Positions 39,933-47,300 of a stretch of 64,000 bases of DNA are shown here, one piece after another. How positions within the stretch are numbered: the stretch's first letter is position 1; every line of letters starts with the position of its first letter. Location of the stretch: NCBI RefSeq assembly GCF_004143485.2, contig NZ_ML974134.1, positions 181,262 through 245,261 on the forward strand. The letters are read 5' to 3'. The notes under the pieces are model-generated. The model saw only the letters and a list, made by a program, of their open reading frames with translations, had not been told where the DNA came from and ran no database searches. This DNA comes from Halorussus amylolyticus (GTDB lineage Archaea; Halobacteriota; Halobacteria; Halobacteriales; Haladaptataceae). A program made the translations under genes and the position numbers.

Positions 39933-40024
39933 CCGAATTTCCCGAGTCCGATTCGAGACGGTGGCCCGCTCGCCCCCGAAGCCGAAGGGTTGGGTTTTTA
40001 ATGGGGCGCTTCGTGGCGCTTGGT

Positions 40025-41164
40025 ATGCGCGTGGCGTTCGTCTCGGAGGCGGTGGCCCAACACCACGAAACGGGGGCCACCAGGCGCATTCGACGCACCG
40101 CCGAGGCGCTCGCCAGACGGGGCCACGACCCCGTCGTCTGCTGTGCGAAGTGGTGGGACGGCGACCACGCGACCTTCGAACAGGACGACGTCGTCTATCG
40201 CGCGGTCACCGACGAACCGCCCGGCGAGTCCCGACGGTTCGCGCTCTCGCTTCCGGCGGCGCTTCGGGCCGCCGACCCCGACGTGATTCAGGCGACCGGC
40301 GCGGTCGCCTCTCACGTCCTCGCGGCCAAACTCGCGAGCGTCGTTCTCCGGGCGCCCCTCGTCGTGGACTGGTACGACTCGCCGGGACCGAACGACTCCA
40401 ACGAACCCCAGTGGCGACTCGCCGCCACGCTCCCCGACCTCGTTCTTGCGCCCTCCGAGACGATTCGAACCCGCGTCCGGGAACTTGGCGCGGAGGCCGA
40501 CGCGGTCCGGGTCGTCCCGAACTTCATCGACACCGACGCGATTCAGGAGGCCGAACCCCGCGAGGTGGCCGACGTCGTCTACTCGCGGCGACTCGACGAC
40601 GACGCCAACCTCGAAAGCCTGTTGCTGGCGCTCGCCGAACTCCGGGACCGCGAGTGGTCTGCGGTCGTCATCGGCGACGGTCCGGAACGCCACACCTACG
40701 AGCGACAGGTCAAGGACCTGCGAATCGAGGACAGGGTGTCGTTCGCGGGCGAACAGCCGGTCGAGAACCGACTCGCGGCGTTCAAGGGCGCGCACGTCTA
40801 CGCCCAGACCGCCCGGAAGGAGTCGTTCCCGACCGACCTCCTGCGTGCACTCGCGTGCGGGTGTGCGGGCGTCGTCGAGTACCACGTCGATTCGAGCGCC
40901 CACGAACTGGTCGAACAGGAGGACCGGGCGTTCCGAACCACGAGCGAACAGGAACTCACCGACGCGCTCGTGACCGCCGCCGAGATGGAGCGGATGGACC
41001 GCAACGAGAACTTCGGCGAGTACGACGAGCGCGCGGTCATCGAGACGTACCTGAACAGCTACGACGAGGCCCGCGAGCGGATGAGTTGGGTGGAGCCTGC
41101 GATGTTAGTCGGCGGCGCTATCGCGGTGGTCGCGGTGGTCGCGCTGTTGGTCGTGGTGCTGTGA
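40025..41164 (+). CDS. family-4-like glycosyltransferase with C-terminal membrane anchor
   Basis: A GT-B fold glycosyltransferase, 379 residues. MRVAFVSEAVAQHHETGATR starts the N-terminal Rossmann domain, VIGDGPERHTYERQVKDL and VSFAGEQPVENRLAAFKGAH the C-terminal nucleotide-sugar domain. In the EX7E motif of this class the second Glu is replaced by Arg (ESFPTDLLRALACG). A single transmembrane helix at about residues 357-379 anchors it. No cluster of sugar genes surrounds it. The frame is open from 39509; ATG 40025 matches the family start. Confidence 0.88.
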   Translation: MRVAFVSEAVAQHHETGATRRIRRTAEALARRGHDPVVCCAKWWDGDHATFEQDDVVYRAVTDEPPGESRRFALSLPAALRAADPDVIQATGAVASHVLAAKLASVVLRAPLVVDWYDSPGPNDSNEPQWRLAATLPDLVLAPSETIRTRVRELGAEADAVRVVPNFIDTDAIQEAEPREVADVVYSRRLDDDANLESLLLALAELRDREWSAVVIGDGPERHTYERQVKDLRIEDRVSFAGEQPVENRLAAFKGAHVYAQTARKESFPTDLLRALACGCAGVVEYHVDSSAHELVEQEDRAFRTTSEQELTDALVTAAEMERMDRNENFGEYDERAVIETYLNSYDEARERMSWVEPAMLVGGAIAVVAVVALLVVVL

Positions 41165-41321
41165 TTTTCACCCTCGCTGTTTGAGCAGGCTTTCTAGCAG
41201 TTTGGTGTAGTATGCGAGCAACCGTTGAGAATAGAGTCCTAGCGACTGCCCCCAGAGATAGGAAGACGCACCACGAAAATCCGAACGGAAAATATAATTA
41301 TTCATATAATTTTCAGTTAGA

Positions 41322-41330
41322 AAAATATAT
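41322..41330 (+). promoter_or_regulatory. AT-rich promoter of the cysteine-rich precursor gene
   Basis: AAAATATAT, inside a strongly AT-rich stretch (about 41288-41332), is centred about 27 bases before ATG 41353. This spacing fits a leaderless message starting at MMSEREHP and is the reason for choosing that start over 41212 or 41329. Confidence 0.45.
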
Positions 41331-41352
41331 GTTTAGCAGGGTCGGACAGCCA

Positions 41353-42147
41353 ATGATGTCCGAGAGAGAACATCCAAAAGAGAACCGACGGTCGATGTTG
41401 AACAGCGTCCACGAGGGACACAGCATTTTCGAGAACGACGAGAGCGTGTCCTCTGACCGACGCCCTCTACTCAAAGGACTCGCAGTCTCGGTAGGAAGCC
41501 TGCTCGGTCTGGGAGGTACTGCCGCTGCCGGTTCCGACACCGAAGCCGACGAAATACGAAAACAGACCGAAGCCGCGATGGAGGGCTACGATACAGTCGA
41601 AGGAGTAGAAACCGCAGTAGCCAACCACGAGAATGGGCTTTTGAATAAACTAACCGATAGCAGTCTCGTCGCGGCCGTCGATTCGGATACCTTCACCGCC
41701 AACGATGTCCAACTTTGGAAGGCTCCAGCAGAGAACGAACCTACTGACGGGACGTACGTGACTGCCTCCGAACGCGAGGGAACGTTCGCGGCACAGATTT
41801 CCATCGTCCGGAAGACGCCGAACCACATCGTTCGGGTTAATATCGAACCCCAACTCGACCGGAGTTTCGCCACGGTCAGTACGCGTGAGGGTGAGACGAT
41901 AGCCGTTCTCGACCCCAGTCACGACGGTGAATTGTCGGCTCAGACCGGCGAGAGCACCGATGACACGGTTACACCGCAAAAGGAGTGCGGAACCGACGGG
42001 TACACGTGCCCGCCGGGTGCGTGTTGTCTCACCTGTGGAACCCTTCAGACGAAACACGAACGGACGTGTTGCGTTTTTTCCGACGGTTCCACGGATTGTT
42101 ACGAAGAAGCCATCGACAAATGCTGTGACCCGCTCGTTTGCTGTTAG
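41353..42147 (+). CDS. secreted precursor with 12-cysteine C-terminal peptide (bacteriocin-like architecture)
   Basis: A 264-residue protein of unknown function. Residues 1-60 hold a hydrophilic leader and a Tat-like signal (SSDRRPLLKGLAVSVGSLLG, then GGTAAAGS). Residues 61-211 form an acidic, cysteine-free middle domain. The last 53 residues contain all twelve cysteines, including four CC pairs (GACCLTCG, RTCCVF, DKCCDP, LVCC). Halocin C8 precursors share this three-part plan (Tat signal, immunity-like domain, Cys-rich peptide), but the tail sequence here is hydrophilic and not recognisably homologous. A secreted metal-binding protein is the alternative. Codon use is AT-richer than neighbours. 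It overlaps the convergent next gene by 4 bases. Confidence 0.75.
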   Translation: MMSEREHPKENRRSMLNSVHEGHSIFENDESVSSDRRPLLKGLAVSVGSLLGLGGTAAAGSDTEADEIRKQTEAAMEGYDTVEGVETAVANHENGLLNKLTDSSLVAAVDSDTFTANDVQLWKAPAENEPTDGTYVTASEREGTFAAQISIVRKTPNHIVRVNIEPQLDRSFATVSTREGETIAVLDPSHDGELSAQTGESTDDTVTPQKECGTDGYTCPPGACCLTCGTLQTKHERTCCVFSDGSTDCYEEAIDKCCDPLVCC

Positions 42148-43298
42148 GTGGTACAGCCGGCCACGGTCACCGTTTTCTCAGACAGAGCGAGATACCTGCC
42201 CGACTCGTCACACGAGACCGGAGAGAGCGTGGAAACGCGCTCGAAATCGTACACTTCAGCGTACGTATCGACGAATTCGGTTGCCTGACTTGCACGCTCC
42301 CACGTCACTCGCCACGTGACGACGGTCGCGTTACTCGACCGGTAATAGTCCATCCTGTCGTTGGTCCAGCCATCGGTCGCGGCGGTCGCTCGGCTTGGAC
42401 TGATACCTTTACTTTCGAGTGTTTCCCGGAGAAACAGTTCACCGACACGGTCAGTGTGTACGCGTTCGAGCGAAGTCGTGGATACGTTCGGTGACTCCAG
42501 TCGTTCGTCGATAGGTTCGGTCTCGTTCGGATGGAGCAGTTGTGCCGTCGATTCTGGAATATCGGTACCGCGAACGCTCCGCTGGTCCAGTTGCTTGCTG
42601 TATCGGTAGCCCGAGTAGTACATCGACTGGGTTATCTGTCGCTTCCACTGTTGCTCAGGTGCGCTCAGTGCTGAGACGTTCAGATGTCCTCCGTACCGGT
42701 CGATATACACGTCTGCCACGTACAGCGAGACGCCGTTCGAAACGGCTTGTCGAGCAAGCACTTCGTCCGTGGTCTGTGGAGCGGTCGAACGCGAGCCAGT
42801 GGTCGTTCCGTCGTTGGCAGCGGGTATCCCGATGGCGTCGCTGAGTTCGTGAACGACGAGGGCTTCGTAGGACAGCCACGGGACGTTTTCGACGACTGTT
42901 TGATTCGCGAGGAACACCTCTACCGGTCCACCGTCCGGTGAGACCGTCGTATGACCTAGTGATGACCGTTCTGTCGAACTCTCTCTCTCGTCGAGTTCGA
43001 AGAAACGGAGGCCGTCCTCCTCGACGAAAGCGAACTGAGCTTGATTCGGGGTCGTGTCGATTCCACTGTCTGTCCGCTCGACACAAATCGAGAGATTTCG
43101 TTGCAGTTGCTGTCCCGTTATGCGTTCGGTACGGGAGAGCATTCGCTCGAAGTCGTACTCGGGCAGCGATTCGCAGATCTCGACGCGGGCGTTTCGTTCC
43201 TCCTCTACCGAATTCAGGTGACCGTTTGCGTAGACGCCCGTGAGTAGTGCTCCGAAAAGCAACGCAGCGAAAAGTACTCCTCTGCGTCGAGATTTCAT
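42144..43298 (-). CDS. membrane-anchored protein with HExxD protease-like motif
   Basis: A 384-residue protein with an N-terminal signal anchor (RRRGVLFAALLFGALLTGVY) and an extracellular remainder. Around residue 150, LSYEALVVHELSDAIGIP resembles the zinc-protease HExxH helix but with Asp in place of the second His. Similar secreted haloarchaeal proteins carry full HExxH. The rest is Thr/Ser/Asn-rich with several NxT/S sites. It is convergent with the cysteine-rich precursor and overlaps its 3' end by four bases. A processing or immunity role for that precursor is a hypothesis only. Composition is AT-richer than the surroundings. Confidence 0.72.
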   Translation of the reverse strand: MKSRRRGVLFAALLFGALLTGVYANGHLNSVEEERNARVEICESLPEYDFERMLSRTERITGQQLQRNLSICVERTDSGIDTTPNQAQFAFVEEDGLRFFELDERESSTERSSLGHTTVSPDGGPVEVFLANQTVVENVPWLSYEALVVHELSDAIGIPAANDGTTTGSRSTAPQTTDEVLARQAVSNGVSLYVADVYIDRYGGHLNVSALSAPEQQWKRQITQSMYYSGYRYSKQLDQRSVRGTDIPESTAQLLHPNETEPIDERLESPNVSTTSLERVHTDRVGELFLRETLESKGISPSRATAATDGWTNDRMDYYRSSNATVVTWRVTWERASQATEFVDTYAEVYDFERVSTLSPVSCDESGRYLALSEKTVTVAGCTT

Positions 43299-43377
43299 TT
43301 ATCTAAAATAATCTGCCCTCGCTTATATGTTTTTGCCGTACTAGAATGCTTAGAAAATATCAGGGAGGGGGTGTCGG

Positions 43378-45819
43378 CTATTGAGAGTCCTTGGAGTTAT
43401 CTGCAGCCGCCACGACGTTCACTGCCGCGACGTTCTCGGCCACGTCGTGAACCCGAACGATGTCCGCGCCGCGCTCGGCCGCGATTGCGGTCCCCGCGAC
43501 GGTCGCCGCGGTCCGGTCGTCGTCCTCCCCGATGAGACCGAACATCGACTTGTGCGAGTGGCCCACGAGGACCGGACACTCCAGCGCGTGGAACTCGTCG
43601 GTCCGGCCGAGGAGCTCGAAGCTCTCGGCGCTCGCCTTCCCGAAGCCCAATCCGGGGTCCACCACGATTTGCTCGCGGTCGAGTCCGGCCTTCTCGGCCA
43701 GCAGGACCTTCTCTTCGAGTTCGTCGATGACGTCCTCGACCACGTCGTCGTAGTGGACTTGGTTGCTCGGAACCACTGGCGCGTCGATGCTGTGCATCAC
43801 GACCAGCGGCGCGTCGTACTCGGCGGCGACGAACCGCATCTCTGGGTCTTCGAGACCCGACACGTCGTTGAGTACGTCGGCTCCGGCGTCGAGCGCGGCG
43901 CGCGCGACTTCCGCCTTTCGGGTGTCGATAGAGACGAGAGCGTCGAGGTCGGCGATGCGCTCGATGACCGGAACCACGCGCTCGATTTCCTCGGTCGCGG
44001 AAATCTCGTCCGCGCCGGGACGGGTCGATTCGCCCCCCACGTCCACGATGTCTGCGCCCGCTTCGACCATCTCCTCGGCGCGCGCCACCGCGTCCTCGAC
44101 GCGTTCGTACTCGCCGCCGTCGTGGAACGAGTCGGGCGTGACGTTCAGGACGCCCATCACCGCGGTCCGGTCCTCCCACGGGTAGCCCCGCCGGGCCGGG
44201 TCGGTCCGGATGTCGAGCGCCTCGCGGAGTTCGTCGGCGAACACCGACAGGCCGTAGGGCTGGCCGTCGAGTTTCTCGCCGAGGCGCTTGAACTGGGCCA
44301 GCGTGCCCATCAGCACCACGTCGATGTTCTGCTCGTCCTGCTCGTTCAGTCCCGAGAGCGCACACTCCCCGCCGAGTGAGAGCATCTCCTCTTTGAGATA
44401 TCGGGCTTGGCGAACCTGCACGCGGGTCTTGAGGACTCGGTGGACCGCCTTCCCGCGCATCCGCCACACGCCGGGGTCGGTGACGTGCGCGCCCTCCAAG
44501 GCTTCGCGGGCGTCGTCGAGATTCCGGATTCGCTTGGGAATCTCGGCGCGGGTCCACCGCGACCGGGCCTCCGCCACGCCGTAGAGCGACCCCGCGACGA
44601 GGACGAGGTCGTCCGAGTCGGCCGCGTTCAGCGCGTTCTCCAGCGCGCCCTCGACCGAGTTCCGGGTGAGGACCTCGCCAGCGCCCGCCTCCTCGAAGAC
44701 GCGGGCGACGACCGCCTCGTCTTCGGCGCGGTCGAGGTTCGGGTGGGTCGCAACCACGCGGTCGGGCGTGGGTAGGGCCTCGGCCATCCCGCGGAGGTCC
44801 TTGTCGTGCATCGCGCCGAACACGAGGTGGAAGTCGTCGTACGCGCCGTCGAACTCCGCGAGCGTCCGGGCGAGCGCCTCGCACGCGCCGGGGTTGTGCG
44901 CGCCGTCGAGGACCACGAACGGGTCGGTTCCCATCACCTCGAAGCGGCCGGGCCAGTCGGCCTTTCGAAGCCCGCGAGCGAGCGTCTCCTCGCTCACGTC
45001 CGCGACTTGGCGGGCGAGCGCGGCCGCGACTCCGGCGTTCTGCGCCTGGTACTCGCCGAGAAGCGGGATTCGCGTTTCGACGCTCCAATCGTCTCCCGCA
45101 AGCGAAATCGCGGCCTCGGTGTGGTTCGTCCGACCGCCGTAGCTGACCCGAACGTCGGCGGCGTCGTCTTCGCCCACACGAACCACGTCACCGGCCTGTT
45201 CACGGACCGCCGCGAGCGCCTCGTCCGCGGTCGCGGTCACGAGCGGCGCGTCCTCCGGCGCGACGTGGGCCTTGTCGCGGGCGATTTCCTCGATGGTCTC
45301 GCCGATGATGCCGGTGTGTTCGAGCGTGACGCTCGTGACCGCGGCCGCAATCGGGTCCACGACGCTCGTGGCGTCGTACTTCCCGCCGATGCCGACTTCG
45401 AGTATCGCCACGTCCACGTCCTCGCGGCCGAAGTACCAGATGCCGAGCGCGGTCATCGTCTCGAAGAAGGTGGGCGCGTCCCCGTCGGCCGCCTTGTCGT
45501 TGACGTACTCGCGAATCGACTCGACGAACTCGACGATTGCGGCCTCCGGAATCTTCCGACCGTCCACGCGGACGCGCTCGCGCACGTCGTCGAAATGCGG
45601 CGAGGTGTACAAGCCGACGTTCAGTCCGGCGTCCCGCAGGACGCGCTCGGCCATCCGGGCGGTCGAACCCTTCCCGTTCGACCCCGCGACCTGCACGAAA
45701 TCGACCCCTTCGTGGGGGTCGTCGAGGTGAGCCAGCAAATCGGCCGTCGAATCCGTCCCCGGTTTGGGTCGGAAGCGACGGATGTCGAACAGGAAGTTCG
45801 CCGCCTCGTGGTAGTTCAT
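43378..45819 (-). CDS. folCP: fused folylpolyglutamate synthase and dihydropteroate synthase
   Basis: An 813-residue bifunctional folate enzyme. Residues 1-430 are the FolC (Mur ligase-like) domain: P-loop AGSNGKGSTARMAERVL, TVTLEHTGIIGETIEEIARDKA-like active region, and DGAHNPGACEALARTL. Residues 430-535 are a linker with Cys and His (LGGECALSGLNEQDEQNI). Residues 540-813 are dihydropteroate synthase: MGVLNVTPDSFHDGGEY, DVGGESTRPGA, VSIDTRKAEVA and VGHSHKSMFG. The fusion is known in haloarchaea. ATG 45819 (MNYHEAANFLFDIRRF) is used; the frame remains open upstream in a hairpin-rich gap. Confidence 0.94.
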   Translation of the reverse strand: MNYHEAANFLFDIRRFRPKPGTDSTADLLAHLDDPHEGVDFVQVAGSNGKGSTARMAERVLRDAGLNVGLYTSPHFDDVRERVRVDGRKIPEAAIVEFVESIREYVNDKAADGDAPTFFETMTALGIWYFGREDVDVAILEVGIGGKYDATSVVDPIAAAVTSVTLEHTGIIGETIEEIARDKAHVAPEDAPLVTATADEALAAVREQAGDVVRVGEDDAADVRVSYGGRTNHTEAAISLAGDDWSVETRIPLLGEYQAQNAGVAAALARQVADVSEETLARGLRKADWPGRFEVMGTDPFVVLDGAHNPGACEALARTLAEFDGAYDDFHLVFGAMHDKDLRGMAEALPTPDRVVATHPNLDRAEDEAVVARVFEEAGAGEVLTRNSVEGALENALNAADSDDLVLVAGSLYGVAEARSRWTRAEIPKRIRNLDDAREALEGAHVTDPGVWRMRGKAVHRVLKTRVQVRQARYLKEEMLSLGGECALSGLNEQDEQNIDVVLMGTLAQFKRLGEKLDGQPYGLSVFADELREALDIRTDPARRGYPWEDRTAVMGVLNVTPDSFHDGGEYERVEDAVARAEEMVEAGADIVDVGGESTRPGADEISATEEIERVVPVIERIADLDALVSIDTRKAEVARAALDAGADVLNDVSGLEDPEMRFVAAEYDAPLVVMHSIDAPVVPSNQVHYDDVVEDVIDELEEKVLLAEKAGLDREQIVVDPGLGFGKASAESFELLGRTDEFHALECPVLVGHSHKSMFGLIGEDDDRTAATVAGTAIAAERGADIVRVHDVAENVAAVNVVAAADNSKDSQ

Positions 45820-46119
45820 ACCTGCGTGAACAGAGGCGGCGTGCTTTAGATTGTCGGACTCGACCTTTTGCTGCGCTCGCGCCCCGAGAGGCGCTCGCTG
45901 GCAAAACGTCGATGAAAAACCGGCGTCACCTCCTCTCTCGCGGCGGGGCGACTTCGCCGCCCCGCCGCTCGCTCGAAGGTTCCTTGGTCCGCTCCTCGCT
46001 TCGTCTGCGTTCGCAAAGCGAACGCAGACTCGGAAGACTACGTCTTCCGGCGCTCGTCGCGGTACACTCACTTGTACTCGACCGCAGGCGGACGGTCGGC
46101 CAGCACGAAGCGCTCGGCG
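45820..46119. other. 300-base intergenic region with three consecutive perfect hairpins
   Basis: No gene is supported. Perfect palindromes follow one another: an 11-bp stem with a 7-base loop (45940-45968), a 12-bp stem GTCTGCGTTCGC with loop AAA (46003-46029), and an 8-bp stem CGGAAGAC/GTCTTCCG with loop TAC (46031-46049). The last stem repeats the stem used at 29706 and 47363, with a different loop. They could end transcription of the minus-strand gene at 46120-46656. Confidence 0.65.
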
Positions 46120-46967: not shown

Positions 46968-47300
46968 ATGCCGCGTGCGCCTTCGACGCTTCGGTTTCTC
47001 CCCGAGGCACGCGACGACCTCGGTACTATCCAGCAGCATAACCCCGACCACGCGGCACGCATTCTCCAAAAAATCGACGATTGGCAGGACAAGATTCAGT
47101 GGGGACGCGTCCCGCAGGAACACCTCACGTATCTTACTGGGTCAGGCACGCGTAATTTCTATCGAGAGCGCGTGGGAAACAGCGGCTACCGCGTTATATA
47201 CGAAATCAGCGACGATACATTGACTGTCGTTGCAATCTTGCCGAAAGGCGACGACACGTACGACTTACAGGAGTTTCGACGCCGGATGGACTCTCGATAA
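46968..47300 (+). CDS. RelE/ParE-family toxin
   Basis: A 110-residue protein of the RelE/ParE superfamily: TLRFLPEARDDLGTIQQHNP starts the first strand-helix, YRERVGNSGYRVIYEISDDTL is the characteristic GxYRVIYxI strand pair, and VVAILPKGDDTYD completes the sheet. RelE members cleave mRNA in the ribosome, ParE members attack gyrase; which applies is not decidable here. It forms a bicistronic unit with the antitoxin. ATG 46968 follows the antitoxin stop by two bases. Confidence 0.87.
   Translation: MPRAPSTLRFLPEARDDLGTIQQHNPDHAARILQKIDDWQDKIQWGRVPQEHLTYLTGSGTRNFYRERVGNSGYRVIYEISDDTLTVVAILPKGDDTYDLQEFRRRMDSR

Follow-up and report, generated by a model that had tools for sequence, protein, structure and literature searches.

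A two-gene module was identified in a stretch of 64,000 nucleotides of Halorussus amylolyticus, herein called the window, in which a gene for a secreted precursor with a cysteine-rich end (P) is found beside a gene for a putative surface pseudo-metalloprotease (M). P has the build of a halocin precursor, in which a twin-arginine translocation (Tat) type signal and a leader are followed by a C-terminal part containing 12 Cys. M appears to be a membrane-anchored and outward-facing descendant of the Hvo_1808-type zinc proteases, which has lost zinc ligands and has been kept by selection. Tentatively, and short of even confidence, M is proposed to be a non-catalytic surface partner of P, most likely an immunity or neutralizing protein. 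M would act without catalysis at the outer face of the producer, where it would still bind the peptide or its precursor, as the ancestral protease did, and no longer cleave either. The producer would thereby be protected by an immunity or neutralizing protein derived from a protease. Sequence comparison supports this proposal at four points, namely the loss of ligands, purifying selection on M, the recurrent adjacency of the two families, and the presence of the same pair in a second taxonomic family.

M is encoded on the minus strand at positions 42144..43298, starts with ATG, is 384 amino acids long, contains YEALVVHELSDAIG, and is assigned to the wider Hvo_1808 family. Its degenerate HExxH motif reads HELSD (residues 150-154; 42837..42851, minus strand), with Asp154 in place of the second His, and Asn188 (42735..42737, minus strand) occupies the position of the third zinc ligand of the family. 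These positions were compared with 45 other members of the wider family, which were the top profile scorers without the known pairs plus the paralogue from the same genome, and which are not a random sample. The second His was present in 45/45 of these members. The downstream Glu, which we infer to bind zinc as the third ligand, was present in 44/45, and H, E, H and the downstream Glu were all present in 43/45. The window M has H, E, D and N at these positions. The HExxD motif noticed in the original prediction is a real departure from the family, and the suggestion of a decayed metalloprotease is supported by the four zinc positions. The full H, E, H, E set was found in 3/7 paired M proteins and in 0/2 unpaired M proteins at this locus.

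The ancestry of M was traced by profile and pairwise comparison. M is homologous to the wider Hvo_1808-like group over the body of the protein, without the HExxH and the downstream Glu of that group. The paralogue encoded in the same genome matches M over residues 23-353 (E value 1.8e-29) and reads HEFVH and VEG, and all ten proteins of one alignment (A1) match the NCBIfam model Hvo_1808_fam (NF038145). The window M itself scores 42.4 bits against this model (E value 5.4e-11). Because this is under the curated cut-off of 200 bits, M is a distant relative and not a member of NF038145 as defined. The wider family is most likely a zinc-peptidase family, since its members carry the motif and intact relatives give weak Pfam matches to zinc peptidases. 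Among 29 intact relatives, these matches were to DUF6782, a putative metallopeptidase (7/29, best E value 4.5e-6), DUF2268 (6/29), M48 (2/29) and, for others, M78, and all of them were weak. The commonest weak match was to DUF7537, which is no peptidase (10/29, best E value 1.6e-4) and which covers N-terminal residues 9-55 in the relative L109; several further weak matches have no bearing on proteases. Neither M nor P had a Pfam match above cut-off, PADLOC gave no match for M, P or two intact relatives, and a scan of viral contigs found no relative. Nothing clear was obtained from searches of the Protein Data Bank (PDB) with sequence profiles of two M alignments and of the Cys-rich part of P. 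The PDB matches below 0.01 from the M alignment, both to the lipoprotein LpqN, were rejected as confined to the signal and a low-complexity region.

P is encoded on the plus strand. The listed open reading frame begins at 41212. The start is probably at 41353, giving a protein of 264 amino acids at 41353..42147, since the first 47 residues of the listed frame are missing from an orthologue. The twin Arg of the Tat-type signal RRPLLKG (41458..41463, plus strand) is invariant in 21/21 aligned precursors. Ten of these 21 family members match the formate_TAT model and one matches TAT_signal_seq, the window P matching neither at 0.01. By its twin Arg, P has the Tat-type signal of halocins, and transport by this route is predicted. 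The Cys-rich C-terminal part holds 12 Cys in 53 residues (41986..42144, plus strand). Because the number of Cys in this part is even in 65/66 listed precursors, ranging from 6 to 22 with the single exception of L130 with 7, full disulfide pairing outside the cell is suggested. The P family was found in 111/391 haloarchaeal genomes at 1e-4, with many weaker matches in the N-terminal part only.

The locus was further found in the named species Halorussus ruber (G021) and Halorussus litoreus (G017). Eighteen genomes of the genus were compared at the site flanked by the glycosyltransferase gene (39998-41164) and the folate gene (43378-46071). P and M occurred together in three genomes (the window, H. 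ruber and G011), M occurred alone in two (G014 and H. litoreus), and decayed remains of both were found in one (G015), where the M remnant is 97 residues long. In 12/18 genomes, neither gene was seen within ~1.5 kb of the glycosyltransferase gene. M is an open frame in five species, with 44-58% identity to the window M. The ratio of nonsynonymous to synonymous substitution rates (dN/dS) was 0.21-0.45 in all ten pairs of the five intact copies, with synonymous sites near saturation in several, and it was 0.36 between the two copies without an adjoining precursor (G014 and G017). The corresponding values for P were 0.17-0.26 in three pairs. These values indicate that M is under purifying selection. 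The five intact M proteins all have Asn in place of the downstream Glu. The second His persists in G021 and G017 and is replaced by Asp in the window and G014 and by Ser in G011. Because ligands are lost and dN/dS is low, catalysis by the usual mechanism has most likely been lost at this locus while the protein has been retained.

The adjacency of the two families was examined in 69 P regions (L094-L162), which were fetched by P score alone and represent the listed P matches down to 5.8e-7, minus G213:C7 and the window. Some of these regions carry more than one P gene (two or three), and three are cut short where the contig stops. An M-like gene (E value <1e-3) was found in 6/69 regions and was the next gene in four, those of genomes G149, G346, G022 and G287. 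In all four next-gene pairs, P is upstream of M on the same strand. By our estimate, which assumes 3-6 M-like genes per 3,900 genes, 0.1-0.2 such pairs were expected by chance, giving a Poisson probability of 4e-6 to 6e-5 for at least four; the M counts are lower bounds, with four candidates scored per genome. P was also found beside M on the same strand in G409, which is of the same genus as G149, and a search of this genus gave a match in 2/4 genomes, G149 and G409. The pairs of G346, G022 and G287 have intact zinc motifs, and their M genes come from other branches of the family. The partnership with the precursor that was originally predicted is supported by these next-gene pairs in several genera and by the grouping of both G149 genes with those of the window. 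The original prediction also held that the partnership would be called into question by homologues regularly found without a Cys-rich neighbor, and on this the outcome was divided. Two of the five intact locus copies have no Cys-rich gene, and the wider M family matches in 384/391 haloarchaeal genomes against 111/391 for the precursor family. The P-M partnership is real and not obligatory.

G149 belongs to another family than the organism of the window. The G149 precursor groups with the precursors of the locus (support 100/97), and the G149 M groups with the M proteins of the locus in a tree of six rows (100/99). The five locus copies of M alone have a support of 88/85, with the G149 M on a long branch. 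This placement is supported by pairwise matches, as the G149 M, compared with 53 others, has its five best matches in the locus copies, and by the short C-terminus with its C-terminal Cys pair that it shares with them. The M proteins of G149 and G409 are 41% identical; both read HELGG and both keep the downstream Glu. The two genera therefore appear to have lost ligands along different routes, and HELGG seems to have outlasted a wide divergence. The first precursor tree was built from members with E value <1e-10, a threshold that left out L159, and in it a branch recovered in 98% of bootstraps had six paired precursors to one side. The tree was rerun with L159 added and the short rows L155 and L161 removed, and its bootstrap was not settled. 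In this rerun, the pairing needs three changes, a number as low as which was reached in 0/500 shuffles, and a single origin of the pairing was withdrawn. The precursors of the window, G021, G011 and G149 group together in both trees. Since L105, L109 and L159 stand apart from the locus group in the M tree, M-like genes seemingly joined precursors more than once.

Several findings weigh against an immunity role for M. In 63/69 P regions, no M match lies within 6 kb. The paired relatives L105, L109 and L159, each encoded immediately after P and in the same direction, have the full HExxH and downstream Glu; with a complete zinc motif in three pairs, M may originally have served its partner as a catalyst. 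The intact G346 M has orthologues in G225 and G235 that lack an adjacent P match. All 7/7 degenerate copies of the clade retain the first two residues of the motif, the His and the Glu of HExx. The AlphaFold2 model of M, built from 3 sequences, is too poor for use, with a predicted local distance difference test (pLDDT) score of 36, as is that of P (pLDDT 34, 2 sequences). The antimicrobial nature of the P product is itself an assumption. Furthermore, immunity to halocin C8 is reported, in the portion of PMC11509114 consulted, to come from the leader of the precursor itself, HalI, and a separate immunity gene would be unnecessary if P works alike. By this analogy, immunity by M would be a departure from halocin C8 and not something to be expected from it. 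On the favorable side, G014 retains M although a search of the whole genome at 1e-6 gave no P match, as expected of an orphan immunity gene; the other genome with M alone at the site, G017, has four P matches elsewhere. The persistence of M without P fits an orphan immunity gene, and it fits an unrelated role too. The predicted outward-facing position of M would agree with both.

Such an unrelated role, in which M has a surface function of its own and the shared site is a variable spot where genes gather, is unlikely, though the most probable of the alternatives. It agrees with the near-universal wider M family, with the varied occupancy of the site in the 18 genomes, and with 42 M-centered stretches, chosen to exclude the known pairs, in which no remnants of P were seen. 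Against it stand the adjacency outside this locus in G149, G346, G022, G287 and G409 and the trees, in which the P and the M of G149 each fall with their counterparts from the window. A folding, export or anchoring helper, that is, a pseudoprotease holding the Cys-rich precursor during disulfide formation, is somewhat less probable. Non-catalytic binding would fit the loss of ligands under selection, and the same-strand order of P then M in four pairs and in G409 would suit a helper; the retention of M in G014 and the lack of an M match near most P genes would not. The possibility that M is a functionless pseudogene in the making draws on the lost ligands and on the remnant in G015. It is contradicted by the open frames in five species, by the HELGG common to G149 and G409 at 41% identity, and by the dN/dS values, which already make it unlikely, and we regard it as very improbable.

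Slightly behind the helper in probability is a maturation protease, in which M frees, or once freed, the Cys-rich peptide from its leader at the surface and the window copy is odd or weakened. The intact, directly following L105, L109 and L159 speak for it, and, according to the consulted part of PMC12893001, the protease that acts on halocin C8 has yet to be identified. The evidence on the other side begins with the zinc site, as the downstream Glu is lost in all five locus copies and the second His is missing in G149 and G409. By eye and without quantification, the stretch of D-D-x-V type that precedes the first Cys in the precursors of the locus recurs in unpaired precursors, among them L094 and L097, and not in the paired L105 and L109. 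The scarcity of M matches around P and the lone M of G014 add to these points. Processing by the window M, which was among the original suggestions, is unlikely because the catalytic ligands are gone and G014 keeps M without a P match. A final proposal, of about the same low probability or marginally lower, is that the Cys-rich peptide targets surface proteases of Hvo_1808 type on other haloarchaea and that M is a decoy copy of the target. The peptide would inhibit, or dock on, these near-universal proteases, and M, with its altered active site, would be displayed as a decoy or an insensitive stand-in. If true, this would be immunity through a dead copy of the target.

The immunity proposal was also placed against known systems. 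According to the part of PMC2945643 consulted, HVO_1808 of Haloferax volcanii carries a lipobox, occurs mostly in cell-associated fractions, and was anchored independently of the lipobox Cys. Like members of the Hvo_1808 family, M is a homologous haloarchaeal protein that is predicted to be secreted or surface-anchored. Unlike them, it scores 42.4 against the required 200 bits, has no lipobox Cys, and has HExxD and Asn for HExxH and Glu; it also has four Cys (C42, C72, C363 and C382) that are invariant in the 5/5 locus copies and are probably paired. An N-terminal hydrophobic segment at residues ~8-25 (43224..43277, minus strand, by inspection) may be a signal anchor or a signal peptide, and from it we infer that M faces outward on the outer side of the membrane. 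A lipobox-like LAGC was seen by inspection at this segment in the paired relatives L105 and L109 and not in the window M.

P resembles the halocin C8 precursor in its Tat-type signal, leader and Cys-rich C-terminal peptide. The P-family profile gave only weak matches to 8/8 open reading frames of halocin C8 type, mainly in the signal region (best E value 2.9e-7, in a searched set of 8). P differs from halocin C8 in that 0/21 family members match TIGR04449 (halocin_C8_dom) at 0.01 and in its other Cys pattern. Among the matches listed for both, none to TIGR04449 was seen by eye near an M match. The same genome does have a halocin C8 domain gene (L235, G000:C2:201184-201384; TIGR04449 37.5 bits, cut-off 24), which lies ~49 kb from the Hvo_1808-like paralogue and does not share a contig with M. 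The precursors HFX_0892 (HmHapP) and halocin H4 are activated by serine proteases such as HlyR4, as stated in an excerpt of PMC12893001. They share with P-M the theme of a secreted precursor and a protease in haloarchaeal antagonism, whereas the partner in P-M is genetically linked and is a relative of zinc proteases with ligands lost. In the literature searched, part of which was available as excerpts, no description of the P-M pair was found. What is new appears to be that a halocin-like precursor is paired with a partner derived from a protease, which occurs in both live and dead versions; the kind of system is already known. The maturation of haloarchaeal peptide toxins and the self-protection of their producers are little understood, as the halocin C8 protease illustrates, and the recurrent P-M pair is a concrete candidate for a role in either. 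The dead form of M would separate binding from cleavage.

M is one of several partner types of P. In the clustering of neighboring genes, the groups counted by regions were precursors (65), ATP-binding cassette (ABC) ATPases (23), M (10), regulator-like proteins (8), ABC permeases (8) and polyprenyl-synthase-like proteins (7). The window and five regions retrieved for this locus make up six of the ten M regions; without these six, M fell to 4, ABC permeases to 7, and the polyprenyl-synthase-like group remained at 7. M is therefore a minor partner, outnumbered by the latter two groups and without a match in most P regions. The polyprenyl-synthase-like group adjoins P-family genes in L106, L111, L114, L118, L121, L140 and L142. 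The match to polyprenyl synthetase PF00348 is weak for L114 (0.0016) and absent for L106, and both of these regions also have a more distant Hvo_1808-like HExxH gene within 3 kb. In L122, L127, L132, L136 and L147, an ABC ATPase and an ABC permease are encoded next to the P-family gene or with one gene in between, and they form another recurrent partner type, perhaps for export or immunity.

The composition and arrangement of the two genes were as originally described. Their G+C content (GC) is lower than that of their surroundings, at 57.1% for M and 56.6% for P, compared with 65.4% over the window as a whole and with 68.1% and 68.5% in the genes on either side. Their stop codons overlap tail-to-tail by four bases, TTAG, at 42144..42147. 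The same overlap is found in H. ruber, and a gap of 39 bases replaces it in G011. The antisense regulation that had been deduced from the overlap is rejected because the overlap is not conserved, and five pairs elsewhere lie on one strand. By inspection only, P may have a separate promoter, as a TATA-like, AT-rich stretch lies at 41320..41331 (plus strand), 22-33 nucleotides upstream of 41353. Similarly, a TATA-like CATATAAG at 43322..43329 (minus strand), 24-31 nucleotides upstream of the M start, suggests that M has a promoter of its own.

The site is variable in the genus. In G018, G024, G027 and G015 (L221, L222, L231 and L009), it holds a protein of 239-244 amino acids with an N-terminal hydrophobic segment; by eye, these proteins are alike among the four genomes and unlike M and P. 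Elsewhere in the window, an open reading frame at 46968-47300 (plus strand) encodes a ParE-type toxin (Pfam PF05016, E value 1.1e-7), and the last part of the open reading frame directly before it, reaching to 46965, looks by eye like a short antitoxin-type protein.
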